NCBI RefSeq assembly: GCF_005405105.1
Contig: NZ_BJDK01000008.1
Span: 1 to 64,000, forward strand
DNA from: Lactiplantibacillus dongliensis
GTDB lineage: Bacteria; Bacillota; Bacilli; Lactobacillales; Lactobacillaceae
DNA length: 64,000 bases
Direction: 5' to 3'
The translations under genes were made by a program, and so were the position numbers. Below are positions 9,747 to 57,900 of the stretch, piece after piece (the first letter of the stretch is position 1; each line of letters opens with the position of its first letter). The notes beneath the pieces were generated by a model. That model searched no databases and was not told where the DNA came from. It saw nothing but the letters and a program-made list of their open reading frames with translations.

Positions 9747-9895
9747 CGACATCATTGGGATTAGACCAATGTTTTCAGTTAATTTTCATTTCCATTAAAT
9801 TGAACCAAAACAGCTCGCTTAGTTAGCTGCCAGCTTTCATAAGACAGCTACGTTAAAACAACCGCTTGCTGTGCGACCGACATAATAAACATTGA

Positions 9896-10067
9896 TTGCC
9901 GTCTCCGTTGACCAGCATATTCGCGGTGGGGCAGACCTGCAGCCAAAGAACGGTCTGCAGGGCACTTGTTAGCCGAAAATCACGTCTAGCAAGCTGGCCC
10001 AATCACTAAGGCCGGAAAATCACCGGTCTAAGTGATTCGACACGGCGAACATGCTGGTCACTACGAC
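9896..10067 (+). repeat. Family B structured repeat, copy B1
   Basis: About 172 bp, nearly the same as 33318-33490. Outer arms TGACCAGCATATTCGC and GCGAACATGCTGGTCA pair over 16 bp with one G-T. Inside are a CCTGCAG/CTGCAGG hairpin and a 15-bp hairpin AATCACTAAGGCCGG / CCGGTCTAAGTGATT. Compared with B2, both outer arms and the inner hairpin change together. It lies between rqcP and divIC and reads opposite to both. Confidence 0.85.
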
Positions 10068-10278
10068 TCATACTGGTTTTAAAAATAAGCTTAGTACCAA
10101 CTAGCACTGCCACCTGCAAACCAATTTTTATACCTGGGAACATTGACCGATTTTGAAGCCTAAGCCAACGTCTTCAAAGTTGTCCTTGACCCCAGCAACA
10201 TAACCGAACATCTAGAAACTAATCCCCAAGCTAAAAACACCGGGCTTACGCAATCATTAATTTAAACATCCCCATCAA

Positions 10279-10431
10279 TTAACGTCGGGCGGGCCAGAAT
10301 TGGCTCAGTGGTGTCGTTTTACTTAATCGGTGATTTTCCGATTCAGTAAAAGCCCGGCTTATGAGACCGCACTATGGCTCATAAACGCGGCCACCACGTT
10401 CCAGCCAATGCTGGACCAACCAGAGTGGCAA
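10279..10431 (+). repeat. Family A structured repeat, copy A1
   Basis: About 153 bp. Outer arms GGGCCAGAATTGGCT and AGCCAATGCTGGACC; second stem GTGGTGTCGTTT with AAACGCGGCCACCAC; hairpin TACTTAATCGG / CCGATTCAGTA; hairpin ATGAGACC / GGCTCAT; conserved joint AAAGCCCGGCTT. It begins 11 bases beyond the rqcP stop and points against the operon. Copy B1 lies 211 bp to its left on the same strand. Confidence 0.9.
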
Positions 10432-10442
10432 CTTAACGAAGC

Positions 10443-20744: not shown

Positions 20745-20785
20745 TTCCTCCTAGTTTTTTTACGTGGGATGGTTACGAACCACGA
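20745..20785 (-). promoter_or_regulatory. preQ1-I riboswitch controlling queT
   Basis: On the minus strand CGTGG-TTCGTAACCAT-CCCACG forms the short P1 hairpin with its loop. TAAAAAAACTAGGAGG follows, where the A-rich tail folds back to make the pseudoknot and GGAGG is the queT ribosome binding site. Layout and key residues match class I preQ1 riboswitches. Control is probably translational, since the Shine-Dalgarno sequence is directly attached and no terminator is seen. Confidence 0.88.
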
Positions 20786-20804
20786 AAATTAACGAGCGGA
20801 TTCA

Positions 20805-20833
20805 ATCGTAGCACGACTAATCAGTCGTCGCAA
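20805..20833 (-). promoter_or_regulatory. queT promoter
   Basis: On the minus strand TTGCGA (20828-20833) and TACGAT (20805-20810) are 17 bp apart with an extended TGC. The spacer contains the dyad CGACT-GATT-AGTCG. Confidence 0.65.
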
Positions 20834-20846
20834 GGTAGATTTCCAT

Positions 20847-20999
20847 TTGTCACTCTGGTTGGGGCAGAATCGGCTGGAACGTGGTGGCCACGTTTTTGAG
20901 CCACAGAACGGTCTCAAAAGCCGGGCTTTATCTAGGTCGAAAAATCATCGACCAAGATAAACGACACCACTGAGCCAATTCTGCCCCGCCTGCCGTTAG
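20847..20999 (-). repeat. Family A structured repeat, copy A2
   Basis: About 153 bp on the minus strand. Outer arms GGGGCAGAATTGGCT and AGCCGATTCTGCCCC; hairpin TATCTTGGTCGA / TCGACCTAGATA; hairpin TTGAGACC / GGCTCAA. These sequences differ from A1 and A3 yet still pair. It lies upstream of the queT promoter and forms an inverted pair with A3. Confidence 0.9.
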
Positions 21000-21052
21000 C
21001 TAGTCAATCCCTTGAATTGAGCATGACTTGCGTAACAGTCAACACTATCACT

Positions 21053-21078
21053 AACAAGTACTCACCTGAGTACTTGTT
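21053..21078. repeat. Perfect 12-bp palindrome between A2 and A3
   Basis: AACAAGTACTCA and TGAGTACTTGTT are perfect inverted repeats separated by CC. No T-run follows on either strand, so it is not an obvious terminator. It lies in the 103-bp spacer between two oppositely oriented family A copies. Confidence 0.75.
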
Positions 21079-21102
21079 CCCAAACAATCTCAAGGAGAAC
21101 AA

Positions 21103-21264
21103 TTGTAGCGTAGGGCGGGCTGGATGATGCTCAGTGGTGTCGTTTGACTTGGGTCGGGTGACCCTCCCCGGCCCTAGTCAAAGCCCGGCTTGGAAGACCG
21201 CCTCTCAGACTTCCAAACGTGGCCACCACGTTCCAGCATCAGGCCAGACCAACCGTAGCGGCAA
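21103..21264 (+). repeat. Family A structured repeat, copy A3
   Basis: About 162 bp. Outer arms GGGCTGGATGATGCT and AGCATCAGGCCAGACC; hairpin TGACTTGGGTCGGG / CCCCGGCCCTAGTCA; hairpin TTGGAAG / CTTCCAA. It ends 8 bp from the argF stop and points against argF, so it falls in the 3' untranslated part of the arg mRNA unless transcription ends first. Confidence 0.9.
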
Positions 21265-33176: not shown

Positions 33177-33317
33177 AACCCCATCGCCTTTCAAAATCTG
33201 ATATTTCCAATTTACCACAGTCGCCGGTAATGTAACAGACCGTTTAACACGCAATCTTTTCACGATGGCATGAAAAGTAGTCCTAATACACCATCAATCT
33301 ACATACTTCATGGTTAA

Positions 33318-33490
33318 TCGCCGTCTCCGTTGACCAACAGGTTCGCGGTGGGGCAGACCTGCAGCCCAAGGACGGTCTGCAGGGCACTTATTAGCCGAAA
33401 ACCACGTCTAACAAGCTGGCCCAATCACTAAGACCGGAAAAGCCACCGGTCAAAGTGATTCGACACGGCGAACTTGTTGGTCACTACGAC
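33318..33490 (+). repeat. Family B structured repeat, copy B2
   Basis: About 173 bp. Outer arms TGACCAACAGGTTCGC and GCGAACTTGTTGGTCA; hairpin AATCACTAAGACCGG / CCGGTCAAAGTGATT; CTGCAG hairpin conserved. Against B1 the outer arms change from CCAGCAT/ATGCTGG to CCAACA/TGTTGG, keeping pairs. It lies upstream of acpS, reading opposite to it. Confidence 0.87.
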
Positions 33491-33556
33491 TCTGTTTGAT
33501 TTACTTTTAAATATTTACAACATCAGAGTCAAATGCCGTCTAAAATATGACCGTCA

Positions 33557-33714
33557 TTAGCGCAGGGCGGGCGGGATGATGCTCAGTGGTGTCGTTTGAC
33601 TTAGGCTGGTGACCTTTCCAGTCTTAGTCAAAGCCCGGCTTGGAAGACCGCTTCTCAGGCTTCTAAACGCGGCCACCACGTTCCAGCATCAATCCAGCCC
33701 AACCGGAGCGGCAA
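33557..33714 (+). repeat. Family A structured repeat, copy A4
   Basis: About 158 bp. Outer arms GGGCGGGATGATGCT / AGCATCAATCCAGCCC; hairpin TGACTTAGGCTGG / CCAGTCTTAGTCA; hairpin TTGGAAG / CTTCTAA. It lies 66 bp to the right of B2 on the same strand, the same B-then-A order as at 9896-10431. The 685-bp gap between acpS and cshA otherwise holds only the cshA terminator. Confidence 0.9.
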
Positions 33715-37960: not shown

Positions 37961-38119
37961 TTGCCGCTCCGGTTGGCCTGGATTGACGCTGGAACGTGGT
38001 GGCCACGTTTGCGAGCCATAATACGGTCTCGCAAGCCGGGCTTTGACTAAGGTCGGGAAAAGCCACCCGCCCTAAGTCAAACGACACCACTGAGCGTCAT
38101 CCAGTCCGCCCTACGCTAG
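37961..38119 (-). repeat. Family A structured repeat, copy A5
   Basis: About 159 bp on the minus strand. Outer arms GGACTGGATGACGCT / AGCGTCAATCCAGGCC, where GACGCT/AGCGTC replaces the GATGCT/AGCATC of A3 and A4. Hairpin TGACTTAGGGCGGG / CCCGACCTTAGTCA; hairpin TTGCGAGACC / GGCTCGCAA. It lies between padR and murF. Confidence 0.9.
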
Positions 38120-38204
38120 TAAACCGCATATTTAAAAATTATCTCCCACACGTTTTACTAGTATGACTACTATTAGCCGCTCTATTTGTTAACTAGCACT
38201 AAAA

Positions 38205-45625: not shown

Positions 45626-45742
45626 AATATTACGCTCCTTTGCCCTGAATCATTTGCTGAAACAGAGATTATCATAGTTTTAATCAACGCTAAACATCTT
45701 ATCATGAATCCTAGCTCAGCGTCAAGCCTCCCAGCCAGTCAA

Positions 45743-47035
45743 TTATCGCCGTGGTCGCCGGGTCGACTGCCCATTAAACTTCAAACCACTCAAGTCATGT
45801 AAAAAGGCTTGGTTGGTGTCACTGTGCTTTAAGAATTGTAACAACTGCTCCGTGTATTCCAACGCATTGCCGGTCATTGAACGCCGAATCTGCCAGACTG
45901 GCTCTAACGCCGCTTGACTAAGCAATAATTCTTCTTTACGCGTGCTGGATTGTTTCAAATCTAACGCTGGGAAAACCCGACGTTCTGCTAATTCACGGGA
46001 TAACTGTAGTTCAGAGTTCCCAGTCCCCTTAAATTCTTCATAAATCATATCGTCCATACGACTACCGGTATCAACTAAGGTGGTCCCTAAAATCGTCAGA
46101 CTACCGCCTTCTTCAATATTCCGCGCTGAACCGAAGAACCGTTTGGGCTTATAGAACGCCGTGGGATCCAGTCCACCAGATAACGTGCGCCCACTTGACG
46201 GCATCGTCAAGTTATAGGCCCGAGTTAACCGGGTAATCGAATCTAGTAGAATGACCACATCCTGCTTGTCTTCCACTAAGCGCCGGGCGCGTTCTAAGAC
46301 TAATTCAGCGACGCGGACATGATTTTGCGGCTGTTGATCAAAGGTTGAGCTCACGACTTCCCCTTTGATCGACCGCTCTAGATCAGTCACTTCTTCTGGC
46401 CGTTCATCAATCAATAACATAATTAACTTAACGTCTGGATAATTCGTCATAATCCCATTGGCAATGTTTTTTAACAGTGTCGTTTTACCGGCTTTAGGCG
46501 GTGCGACAATCAAGCCCCGTTGGCCAAACCCAATCGGCACAAAAGTATCAATTAAGCGCGTCGATAACACCGACTTGGTTGTGGTTAAGGTCAATTGCTT
46601 TTCAGGATATAACGGCGTTAAGGCTGGAAAGTGGGGCCGTTGCTTAGCTTCATTGGGGTCTTTTCCATTAACGGTTCCGACTCGCATCAAGCCATAATAC
46701 CGTTCATTAGGCTTCGGTGGCCGGGCTTGTCCTGCCACATAATCCCCATTCCGCAACCCAAAACGATGAATCTGGGACTGCGAGATATAAATGTCTTCTT
46801 GGGAGGGACCATAATTAATGGGGCGCAAAAAGCCGTAGCCCTCTTGTCCAATAATTTCGAGAACACCTTCCATTTGGACAAAGCCGCGCTTTTTATCTTG
46901 GGCACGCAGCACGGCTAGTGACAATTCTTTTTTATTCATTTGAGAATAGTATTGAATCTTATAGTCGCGCGCATACGTATAAATTTCCTTGAGCGTCTTT
47001 TGCTCAAGATCGTGCATCGTTAAAATTTTATCCAT
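45743..47035 (-). CDS. rho: Transcription termination factor Rho
   Basis: Hexameric RNA helicase that ends untranslated transcripts. The 430-residue protein has the N-terminal RNA-binding cold-shock fold ([16 protein letters not shown]), Walker [12 protein letters not shown], Walker [17 protein letters not shown], and the R-loop region with [13 protein letters not shown]. The ATG at 47035 has a weak site (AAAGAG); a GTG two codons upstream is possible. It follows murA through repeat C1. Confidence 0.96.
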
Positions 47036-47067
47036 TATCACTGCTCTTTCTCAGCTGGTCGTCGTTT

Positions 47068-47188
47068 GCCGAAACGTGCTCGGTAAGCCTGGGGATTCCG
47101 CTTGCTACGCCAAATAACCATCCGGAAAAACACCGGATAATTATCTGGCTAGGCAATGCTCATCCCCACCCGGCTTACCTCACACTCT
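47068..47188 (-). repeat. Family C structured repeat, copy C1
   Basis: About 121 bp. Read on the minus strand: GAGTGTGA, then GGTAAGCC / GGCTTACC and GGGGAT / ATCCCC outer arms, conserved GAGCATTGCCTAG and CGTAGCAAGCGGA strands, and an inner hairpin CCAGATAATTATCCGG / CCGGATGGTTATTTGG. It includes the last Arg-Val-stop codons of murA and fills the 144-bp gap to rho. Confidence 0.85.
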
Positions 47189-48454
47189 GATCTCGTCAGC
47201 GGCAATCTCTACATCCGCTCCCAGCGTATGCAACTTATCGATCACGCGGTCATAGCCACGTAAAATATTGTCGGCACGTGAAATCTCTGTGGTGCCACTA
47301 GCAATTAAGCCAGCAATCATTAAGGCCGCGCCAGAACGGATTTCGCCCGCTTCGACATGCGCCCCTTGTAGATGGGAAGAGTGTCCCACCACAATTAAAT
47401 TATCTTGCACACGGATATCCGCGCCCATTTTGCGTAATTGTGCAATATGCTGCGTTCGTTGTGGGTAGATCGTATCAATCACGACGCTATTGCCGTTAGC
47501 CCGTAATAATAACGGCGTAATCGGTTGTTGCAAATCAGTTGCAAAACCAGGATACGTCATTGTTTTTACGCGCACTGGATTAAGGTCACTAACCCGCGGA
47601 ACGTAAATACTGTCTTCGTTAATCTGTAACCCCACACCCATTTCGAGCATTTTGGCCGTAAACGATTCCATATGTTCAGGAATGACATTCTTAAGTAAAA
47701 TGCCATCACCAATGGCCGCTGCCAATGAGAGGTAGGTCCCAGTCTCAATGCGATCTGGAATAATGGTGTGCGTGGCCCGTGCGCGTAGAGAATCGACGCC
47801 TTCGATCCGGATGACATCCGTCCCGGCGCCACGAATCTTCGCACCCATGTTGTTTAAGAAAGTCGCCACATCAATGATTTCAGGTTCTTTGGCGGCGTTT
47901 TCAATCGTGGTTGTGCCATGGGCTTTAACGGCGGCTAAAATAATATTAATCGTCGCCCCAACCGACACCACGTCTAAGAATATACGGGCGCCATGTAACC
48001 CTTCAGTCCCAGTTGAAATAAAGACGGAGTCGTTTTTTTCGACGACATTCGCCCCGAGTGCTTTAAACCCTTTAATGTGTTGATCAATCGGCCGAGGACC
48101 AATATTGTCCCCGCCTGGAAAAGTGACGGTTGCCCGGTTAAAACGCCCGAGTAACGCGCCCATGAAATAATAAGATGCACGCAGGCTTTTAATTGCGTGA
48201 CTTGGTAATTCGGATTCTTCAATATGAGTTGGATCAATCGTTAATACATCGTTTTCAAAAGTGGAATGGACATTCATCGATTCCAAAATAATTTTTAAAT
48301 TGTGAACGTCTAAGATGTGCGGAACCGTGTCAAATCGGACCGGAGTGTCTGCGAGAATCGCAGCAGGAATCAGTGCGACGGTACTATTTTTTGCGCCACC
48401 GATCGTCAATTCCCCAGAAAGTCGTTTTCCGCCATGGATAATCATTTTTTTCAT
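47180..48454 (-). CDS. murA: UDP-N-acetylglucosamine 1-carboxyvinyltransferase with Asp at the fosfomycin-target position
   Basis: First committed step of peptidoglycan synthesis: adds enolpyruvate to UDP-GlcNAc. The 424-residue protein is a normal EPSP-synthase fold with GGAKNS (19-24). The catalytic loop reads FPGGDNIGPRPID: Asp116 stands where most enzymes have the fosfomycin-reactive Cys (Cys115 in E. coli). Asp variants are known to be active and fosfomycin-resistant. This is the murZ-like copy linked to rpoE-pyrG-rho; a second murA elsewhere is likely. The last codons lie in repeat C1. Confidence 0.95.
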   Translation of the reverse strand: MKKMIIHGGKRLSGELTIGGAKNSTVALIPAAILADTPVRFDTVPHILDVHNLKIILESMNVHSTFENDVLTIDPTHIEESELPSHAIKSLRASYYFMGALLGRFNRATVTFPGGDNIGPRPIDQHIKGFKALGANVVEKNDSVFISTGTEGLHGARIFLDVVSVGATINIILAAVKAHGTTTIENAAKEPEIIDVATFLNNMGAKIRGAGTDVIRIEGVDSLRARATHTIIPDRIETGTYLSLAAAIGDGILLKNVIPEHMESFTAKMLEMGVGLQINEDSIYVPRVSDLNPVRVKTMTYPGFATDLQQPITPLLLRANGNSVVIDTIYPQRTQHIAQLRKMGADIRVQDNLIVVGHSSHLQGAHVEAGEIRSGAALMIAGLIASGTTEISRADNILRGYDRVIDKLHTLGADVEIAADEIRV

Positions 48455-48663
48455 AACATAACTTTCCTCGCTAAATAAGTGTCACACTGTACAATTACAA
48501 TCAATAACCATAATAAAGAATGTCATCCAAAAAAACAACCAATATCAGGAAACTGTAATCTTTTATCACTAATAAAATACGAAAATTTAGTTATTTAACC
48601 GTTTTCATGATGAAAATTCTCAAATTGGTTAATTTTTGGTAACGGTGACTGGCTTTTTTAGCG

Positions 48664-48703
48664 CAAAAAAGCGTTAGGACTTTGGGAGCGTCCTAACGCT
48701 TTA
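48664..48703 (-). terminator. pyrG terminator
   Basis: On the minus strand AAAGCGTTAGGAC pairs with GTCCTAACGCTTT and is followed by TTTTTG. It separates pyrG and C2 from murA. The AT-rich stretch from there to the murA start (48455-48663) has no gene. Confidence 0.92.
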
Positions 48704-48720
48704 TGTTTTGAATTGGTTTT

Positions 48721-48842
48721 GCTGAAACGTGTTCACTCGGACTGAAGGCTCCGCTTGCTACGCCAAGTCAACTAGCCGGAAGATCACCGGCTAATTGACT
48801 TGGCTAGGCAATGCTCACCTTCACCCGTCCTCGTTCACACTC
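48721..48842 (-). repeat. Family C structured repeat, copy C2
   Basis: About 122 bp, starting at the base after the pyrG stop on the minus strand. Outer arms GAAGGT/... pair as TGAAGG / CCTTCA and CGGAC / GTCC; inner hairpin CCAAGTCAATTAGCCGG / CCGGCTAGTTGACTTGG. The blocks GAGCATTGCCTAG and CGTAGCAAGCGGA are identical to C1, while the arms differ and still pair. Confidence 0.85.
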
Positions 48843-50486
<1,644 letters not shown>

Positions 50487-51721: not shown

Positions 51722-52103
51722 GAATTTTACCTCCAGAGTGTGTGACTGCCAACCCGATTGCCACACACGATTAGTTTCCTAAGTGGTTTGTATCTGTTCA
51801 TATAGTGGCTTTCAACTTATCGTTCCAATCGAACTGGACTTGATACCGCAACATAGCAGCTACGTTTATGAACCCCAAAACGACTGAGTCATAATCATTC
51901 AAAATATGAGCCTTACAAACCACACGTCTTCTTATCTGACAATTCAGCCCTAAAAACACTAACTTGCCATTAAAGATAACTCCTTAACAATTATAAGCTA
52001 TCTGAACGGAAATGACTAAAAATCCACCCAAGTCAGGGAATTCCTCTGCGGACTAGTAAGGTTTCGAGTATAATTAATCAGGAACGGCCCGCTTGAGTTT
52101 AAA

Positions 52104-52256
52104 TTGCCACTCTGGTTGGTCCAGAATCGGCTGGAACGTGGTGGCCGCGTTTTCGAGCCACAGAACGGTCTCGAAAGCCGGGCTTTATCTAAGCCGGAAA
52201 ATCACCGACCAAGATAAATGACACCACTGAGCCAATTCTGGCCCGCCCGGCGTTAA
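52104..52256 (-). repeat. Family A structured repeat, copy A6
   Basis: About 153 bp on the minus strand. Outer arms GGGCCAGAATTGGCT / AGCCGATTCTGGACC; hairpin TATCTTGGTCGG / CCGGCTTAGATA; hairpin TCGAGACC / GGCTCGA. It lies in the 849-bp gap between the DUF1934 and lipL genes, facing away from A7. Confidence 0.9.
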
Positions 52257-52292
52257 TCAGAAATTACTGATTATTTAGTTCAACCAGTAAAT

Positions 52293-52453
52293 TTAGCCGA
52301 GCGGTTGGTTGCTAAAATGCTCAGCCGTGTCGTTGGCCTTAGTGCGAGTGGTCTGCTCGGGCTTAGGCCAAGGTCAGTTTTGAAGACCTCATTTTTGGCT
52401 TCAAAATGGCCCATGGCGTTCCAGCGTTTTAGCAACCAACCAGCAGGCGGCAA
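52293..52453 (+). repeat. Family A structured repeat, divergent copy A7
   Basis: About 161 bp. Most bases differ from the other copies, but the layout is kept. Outer arms GTTGGTTGCTAAAATGCT / AGCGTTTTAGCAACCAAC pair over 18 bp with one G-T; hairpin TTGGCCTTAGTGCGAG / CTCGGGCTTAGGCCAA; hairpin TTTTGAAGACC / GGCTTCAAAA with the same bulged A. The remaining gap (51722-52103) shows no gene. Confidence 0.82.
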
Positions 52454-57737: not shown

Positions 57738-57843
57738 CTTCTTTTTGTTTCATCAGCCTTAATTATAGCTAATTTCACTGGTCGATACCAATCGCAAGTT
57801 TAATTGCTAGCCATAAATTTGTGCTCAGTGCTTGTGGACTTAA

Positions 57844-57900
57844 TTTGCCACTCTGGTTATCCCAGCATCGGCCGGAACATGTTGGCCGCGTTTTAAAGAC
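57844..57900 (-). repeat. Truncated family A remnant
   Basis: On the minus strand it matches only the last third of family A: AACGCGGCCAACATGTTCC, the outer arm GCCGATGCTGG, and the CCAGAGTGGCAA end. The 5' two-thirds are missing, replaced by unrelated sequence up to the prs terminator. Confidence 0.7.

Follow-up and report, generated by a model that had tools for sequence, protein, structure and literature searches.

Two hairpins behind murA and pyrG of Lactiplantibacillus dongliensis are copies of a dispersed, probable structured-RNA repeat of Lactobacillales

The window analyzed here, a stretch of 64,000 nucleotides from Lactiplantibacillus dongliensis (contig NZ_BJDK01000008.1, positions 1 to 64,000), carries pyrG, murA, and rho on its minus strand, with one short repeat element of the family described below (family C) 3' of pyrG and another 3' of murA. 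The features of this region, in the direction of transcription, are as follows.

48843..50453, minus strand: pyrG (CTP synthase), host gene of C2 (ORF list; NCBIfam)
48716..48844, minus strand: element C2, 5' end at 48844, beginning inside the pyrG stop codon (cmsearch R1, 136.7 bits; fold z -8.0)
48804..48816, minus strand: 5' conserved block of C2, GAGCATTGCCTAG (exact 13-mer match)
48750..48762, minus strand: 3' conserved block of C2, CGTAGCAAGCGGA (exact 13-mer match)
48660..48702, minus strand: terminator-type hairpin and T-run behind C2, read directly as AGCGTTAGGAC, a 9-nt loop, GTCCTAACGCT, and then T's
47180..48454, minus strand: murA (UDP-GlcNAc 1-carboxyvinyltransferase), host gene of C1 (ORF list; NCBIfam)
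47063..47189, minus strand: element C1, 5' end at 47189, between murA and rho (cmsearch R1, 127.0 bits; fold z -8.9)
47149..47161, minus strand: 5' conserved block of C1, GAGCATTGCCTAG, the 5' side of the middle helix and its loops
47097..47109, minus strand: 3' conserved block of C1, CGTAGCAAGCGGA (exact 13-mer match)
45743..47041, minus strand: rho, the next gene 3' of C1 (ORF list; NCBIfam)

The original prediction described C1 and C2 as keeping two sequence blocks exactly while their stems diverge, and these details are borne out: both 13-mers are found at the places claimed for them, the stems GGGGAT/ATCCCC and TGAAGG/CCTTCA differ yet still pair, the end of murA (Arg-Val-TGA) lies inside C1, and the TAA of pyrG abuts C2. 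C1 supplies the final two sense codons and the stop codon of murA and is followed after 21 nt by the rho ORF as listed. Because C2 sits between the pyrG stop codon and a terminator-type hairpin, it would be a 3' UTR; the hairpin is the probable pyrG terminator and is unlisted on the minus strand in our terminator scan, which was limited to loops of at most 8 nt. Each 13-mer occurs exactly twice in the window, always on the minus strand. With up to two mismatches the first has three matches (shuffle mean 1.2, a count reached by 12 shuffles) and the second four (shuffle mean 1.2, reached by one shuffle), such that the single blocks are not far above chance. The paired pattern GAGCATTGCCTAGC...CGTAGCAAGCGGA is found 26 times in the whole genome versus 0 times for a reversed-pattern control, and C1 and C2 are confirmed as homologues. 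Each is a single long hairpin that folds far more stably than shuffled sequences, as the z-scores listed above indicate; the bit scores are not independent evidence, as both elements are among the copies used to build the covariance model.

C1 and C2 belong to a dispersed family of structured-RNA repeats, ≈125 nt in length, that is found in the order Lactobacillales. A fuzzy-pattern search gave 114 rows, from which five coding or broken rows were dropped and seven unusually long or rearranged ones excluded, and the remaining 102 copies (alignment A1, C1 and C2 included) were used to build a first covariance model (R1). This model has 66 matches at E ≤ 0.01 in the L. dongliensis genome, where 150 of 737 candidates were scored, and some of these matches are short or degenerate. 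By model, short forms of 75 to 84 nt are found at L140 (3957-4040), L125 (9668-9751), L142 (3940-4023), and L106 (1421-1495), the last of which has the outer arms and is devoid of the apical part. An exact scan of a named genome collection retrieved 65 stretches, every one of them titled Lactiplantibacillus, and the same scan of viral contigs found none. The search across Lactobacillaceae that had been suggested as a check of the two blocks gave, by model, matches in 20 of 20 congeners and in 8 of 16 other Lactobacillaceae genomes, and the family extends beyond Lactobacillaceae, with R1 matching 1 of 23 genomes from other families of the order. A second covariance model was built from 53 copies found in several genera. 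Of 198 genomes sampled across the order, it matched 34 (L. dongliensis included), and these span 22 of 55 genera and six families. In a phylum sample of 249 genomes that served as a control for false matches, with 13 candidates scored per genome, the second model matched L. dongliensis alone and 0 of the 248 others. Copy numbers in the congener and order surveys are lower bounds, as 57 candidates per genome were scored with the first model and 17 with the second.

Queries taken from the window and from L. plantarum gave no match in plasmid or phage records, and a query from a further family of the order (L215) no plasmid match; a query from yet another family (L206) matched five places on an Aerococcus tenax megaplasmid. 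A known Rfam family was rejected as an identity: at the gathering score no family matched the element in the window, in the C1-C2 region, or in 20 loci from several genera, and a scan of the C1-C2 region at E up to 10 returned sub-threshold matches to unrelated families only. Elsewhere in the window, the Rfam scan placed a PreQ1 riboswitch at 20745-20789 and an L31 ribosomal-protein leader at 45635-45667, both on the minus strand. No description of the repeat was found in the open-licence literature, a scope outside of which most subscription papers lie. L. johnsonii is listed in a survey of stem-loop families (PMC2267715) whose main text does not contain the word plantarum, and the text of a MITE review (PMC10969869) is without Lactobacillus. 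The family is of interest as a repeat with a selected RNA fold that is spread across families of Lactobacillales, has no Rfam match in the scanned copies, and rewrites the 3' ends of core genes, including murA and pyrG.

The predicted fold is one long hairpin composed of an outer, a second, a middle, and a variable apical helix. Changes on both sides of a base pair are found in 29 of 38 pairs among the 102 copies of the genus and in 35 of 38 among the 53 copies from several genera; the 5' conserved block of C1 and C2 is nearly invariant in the genus, and its helix (helix 4) covaries across genera. In the cross-genus alignment, itself fitted to the structure (alignments A2 to A7 were fitted to a model), 95.1% of cells are paired versus 34 to 43% in slid controls. 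On the element strand, G-U exceeds A-C in each of five sets (153:26, 193:47, 75:10, 24:6, and 223:74), in the apical helix (187:23), and in the twelve variable outer pairs (113:27). A symmetric DNA palindrome predicts equal numbers of the two and is rejected given the large surplus of G-U on one strand. Compensatory substitutions and G-U pairs, the latter preferred on the strand of the element, maintain the helices, and RNA is a simpler reading of this pattern than a single-stranded DNA hairpin, which would also tolerate G-T pairs.

Comparison of L. dongliensis with Lactiplantibacillus songbeiensis reveals how individual copies change in place. Among 22 site-matched copies, 13 are 93 to 100% identical and three are internally deleted in one species, while six sites with flanks of 83 to 99% identity harbor a copy with different stems that still pair by eye; one further site holds chimeras in both species, with outer arms that match each other's partner. 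Head-to-tail arrays of two or three copies exist, and since they do, loss from arrays and recombination between neighbors would explain the swapped copies. Between species, copies are present, absent, or replaced. Ten sites compared with the sister genome (G017) and the next relatives yielded no clean empty site from which a target duplication might be read: in the sister genome nine of the ten have an element-length gap between the flanks, the tenth holds a short chimera, and divergence in the next relatives is too great for a clean comparison at these sites. Family C copies also occur as inverted pairs in which the 3' ends point toward each other, at L022, L069, L041, and L088; the two copies nearly overlap at all of these loci except L088, where 23 nt separate them.

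The 13 orthologous, unswapped copies (the other nine of the 22 pairs were excluded because their elements are swapped or deleted) retain pairing in 19 of 27 changed pairs, where 36% kept pairs are expected from the spectrum of changes in the flanks (p 3e-4); in an earlier version of this test that took its pairs from an energy model, 21 were kept and 11 broken. Change rates, lowered by the choice of unswapped copies, are 2.7% in paired and 3.6% in unpaired positions of the element, 6.3% in intergenic flanks, and 6.0% in coding flanks. Resident copies thus appear to remain constrained after landing.

To place copies relative to genes, we used longest-ORF calls from a purpose-written script and considered a copy stop-linked if the start of the copy or array falls within -12 to +8 nt of the upstream gene's stop codon; a separate anchoring of element 5' ends took in 138 of 153 copies. 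With a sense gene upstream, 20 of 38 copies in L. dongliensis are stop-linked (one more within the next 21 nt), compared with 2 of 19 with an antisense gene, and the corresponding counts are 20/52 versus 0/26 at other Lactiplantibacillus loci, 41/58 versus 1/28 in genus g4 (G023), and 7/18 versus 0/15 in genus g16 (G035), the last two being among the matches listed, which are part of all copies in those genomes. The stop count at the element start is inflated because two frames of the element contain stop codons of its own, and the sets are not fully independent because species share some sites. Between codirectional genes, sense copies outnumber antisense ones by 26:6 in L. dongliensis, 33:9 at other Lactiplantibacillus loci and, among the matches listed, 31:3 in G023 and 7:4 in G035, where the excess is not significant. 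The gene-end linkage claimed for the two blocks therefore holds, here and in another genus: rather than lying at random intergenic places, element starts cluster at stop codons in the sense orientation. Many of the listed G023 copies lie in one part of the chromosome (contig 1, ≈0.92 to 1.48 Mb).

At L124 (G014, G020), L132 (G006, G014, G020), and L010 (G020), element-free relatives have the stop at the same codon, and by reading of the sequences this is also the case for pyrG. Set against its version in relatives, the gene at L026a is shorter by one codon and that at L026b by two, and the tail of murA is changed. The base preceding GAG at the element start is A in at least 90% of the 102 copies. 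A second placement group consists of copies 3' of terminator T-runs: TTTTT is found in the 5' flank of 18 of 59 and 40 of 90 copies (from totals of 61 and 92, the rest being at locus ends), compared with 4.6% of random intergenic 16-mers. Copies at L011, L133, L136, and L138 lie behind what we take to be the terminator/antiterminator region of T-box-like leaders. A rough script applied to G023 identified a terminator within 120 nt downstream of 6 of 73 copies and directly upstream of 0 of 73, among the matches listed. Pairing is 93 to 96% in all placement classes, including copies antisense to both neighbors and copies behind T-runs, and antisense copies at other Lactiplantibacillus loci have a weak G-U lead (11:7). 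Because antisense and T-run copies are paired equally well, the fold is not obviously kept for the neighboring mRNA, which speaks against selection having acted through a 3'-UTR role.

The suggestion that C1 and C2 form a 3'-UTR RNA structure thus stands in part. Gene-end linkage, the one-strand excess of G-U, and the location of C2 before a terminator-type hairpin speak for such a structure, whereas the special tie to murA and pyrG is lost when relatives are considered. An element is found 3' of murA in 4 of 21 Lactiplantibacillus genomes, that is, in L. dongliensis (G000), G017, G013, which has two tandem elements, and G008, where the element is degenerate, without its apical part, and a weak match; a copy in G003 lies ≈1 kb upstream of murA on the opposite strand. 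In the 12 genomes where pyrG adjoins murA, an element 3' of pyrG is present in G000 and G017 only, among the matches listed. A dedicated 3'-UTR regulator of murA and pyrG might account for C1 and C2 being kept at 96% and 98% identity in L. songbeiensis, but with 17 of 21 genomes lacking the element behind murA, 10 of 12 lacking it behind pyrG, and dozens of other places carrying it, a device specific to these two genes is largely refuted and barely credible. We also consider it very unlikely that the element is an intrinsic terminator or an independent small-RNA gene, as a highly stable hairpin at gene ends might suggest: TTTTT is found in the 3' flank of 0 of 59 and 0 of 90 copies, which rejects the former, the stop-abutting copies examined by eye in L. 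dongliensis precede a separate terminator hairpin, and promoter-like sites in the C1-C2 region are as frequent as in shuffled sequences (4 versus a mean of 3.6). Two further candidates, integron attC and domain V of group II introns, were set aside by eye.

More serious is a selfish DNA element of the BOX or MITE kind, acted on by a transposase as a single-stranded DNA hairpin and of no use to the host, its sites at gene ends reflecting tolerance and a short target. That copies are dispersed, in tandem, and present or absent between species, that pairing is kept whatever the orientation of the host gene, and that a DNA hairpin would tolerate G-T pairs as well are all compatible with this, and BOX is regarded as parasitic (PMC3049150). 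Selection on resident copies is, however, unexpected for dead insertions, and tolerance alone leaves the strong sense bias at stop codons unexplained; moreover, L. dongliensis has no Y1 transposase match and the two genus queries no match in plasmids or phages, and we regard such an element as rather unlikely. We favor instead, with a probability of roughly 0.6, a mobile structured-RNA repeat that is BOX-like in behavior and becomes 3' UTR or intercistronic RNA at gene ends. Its movement and function, as we infer them from the computed family, fold, strand bias, sense placement, and arrays, might proceed as follows. A copying process would place the 5' end of the repeat at gene ends, and the repeat would multiply in tandem, with copies recombining with each other. 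Behind a stop codon it would become a 3' UTR, as C2 before the pyrG terminator, or intercistronic RNA, as C1 between murA and rho, and the long hairpin would most likely either stop 3' exonucleases or serve as a substrate for a double-strand-specific RNase, giving the upstream message a defined, stable 3' end. REP sequences, which can protect mRNA 3' ends, are one model for this proposed action of the hairpin. Another is the behavior reported for Correia and ERIC repeats (PMC3049150 and PMC10969869).

A route through RNA, in which the 5' end of the element is joined to transcript 3' ends and a DNA copy is then recombined into the chromosome, strikes us as improbable. The acceptor would be the end of a terminator T-run or an mRNA end that a terminating ribosome shields at the stop codon, and this route would explain the sense orientation, the stop and T-run sites, the arrays, and the one-strand selection. 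Some head-to-tail arrays have A-rich joints. Reverse transcriptase (PF00078) has two matches in G000 and none in G017 and several other copy-rich genomes. If true, the RNA route would make family C an equivalent, in bacteria, of SINE-type retroposons, one that uses borrowed enzymes. The placement of copies at stop codons and T-runs, together with the one-strand selection, makes it testable how small enzyme-less repeats reach gene ends and whether bacteria employ them as ready-made 3' UTRs.

Several known repeats invite comparison with the mobile structured-RNA repeat that we favor. REP/BIME are short palindromic intergenic repeats associated with RAYT (Y1) transposases. Family C resembles them in this palindromic, intergenic character, but it is ≈125 nt long, compared with 20 to 40 nt for REP, and REP with RAYT was rejected because L. 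dongliensis lacks a Y1 transposase match: Y1_Tnp (PF01797) gave 0 matches in G000 and in seven congeners (G003, G004, G005, G013, G016, G018, and G020) that carry 16 to 57 copies each (lower bounds). EFAR of Enterococcus faecalis, a Lactobacillales species, likewise consists of small hairpin repeats, a likeness of general description. As for MITEs, the outermost predicted helix of family C is GUGU/ACAC only and no clean empty site was obtained.

By behavior, the nearest known kind that family C resembles is the BOX repeat of Streptococcus pneumoniae and Streptococcus suis. According to PMC3049150, 36 of 58 annotated genes that overlap a BOX take their stop codon from it; BOX is also transcribed, extending operons at the 5' and the 3' end, and is regarded as parasitic and slow-moving. 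Both are small dispersed repeats with a predicted RNA fold, variable number, and sites at gene ends, and family C, too, is a dispersed RNA stem-loop able to supply the stop codon of an upstream gene. Compared by description rather than sequence, BOX is a composite boxA-(boxB)n-boxC, whereas family C is one continuous hairpin in which head-to-tail whole copies are seen and internal modules are not; unlike BOX, it also spans several families of an order and is under strong one-strand selection of pairs. Correia/NEMIS and ERIC repeats lie in transcripts and become RNase III or RNase E sites, and ERIC sits at the 3' ends of genes (PMC10969869 and PMC3049150); they differ from family C, itself known from sequence alone, in hosts and sequences. 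The L17 downstream element (RF01708) is likewise a structured RNA of Lactobacillales that lies in potential 3' UTRs (PMC2864571), but it is tied to one gene, whereas family C is found at many genes and has no Rfam match in the scanned copies.

Two further observations concern sequences adjoining or resembling such repeats. In G023 (genus g4), similar sequence continues 3' of the copies at L236, L244, L245, L249, and L253, with GCAAGTTTGAGGATAAA... in L249, L253, and L245 and a looser match in L236 and L244, and may represent a composite repeat in this genus. The window also harbors a larger dispersed repeat family, with pieces of up to ≈400 to 540 nt on both strands (9892-10436, 20818-21264, 33314-33714, 37961-38133, 52075-52407, and 57840-57898) that carry GCTGGAACGTGGTGGCCACGTTT, a GAGCC...GGTCTC stem, and AACGACACCACTGAGC; pieces similar to this larger repeat lie behind family C copies of the same genome, in the flanks of L017 and L140.
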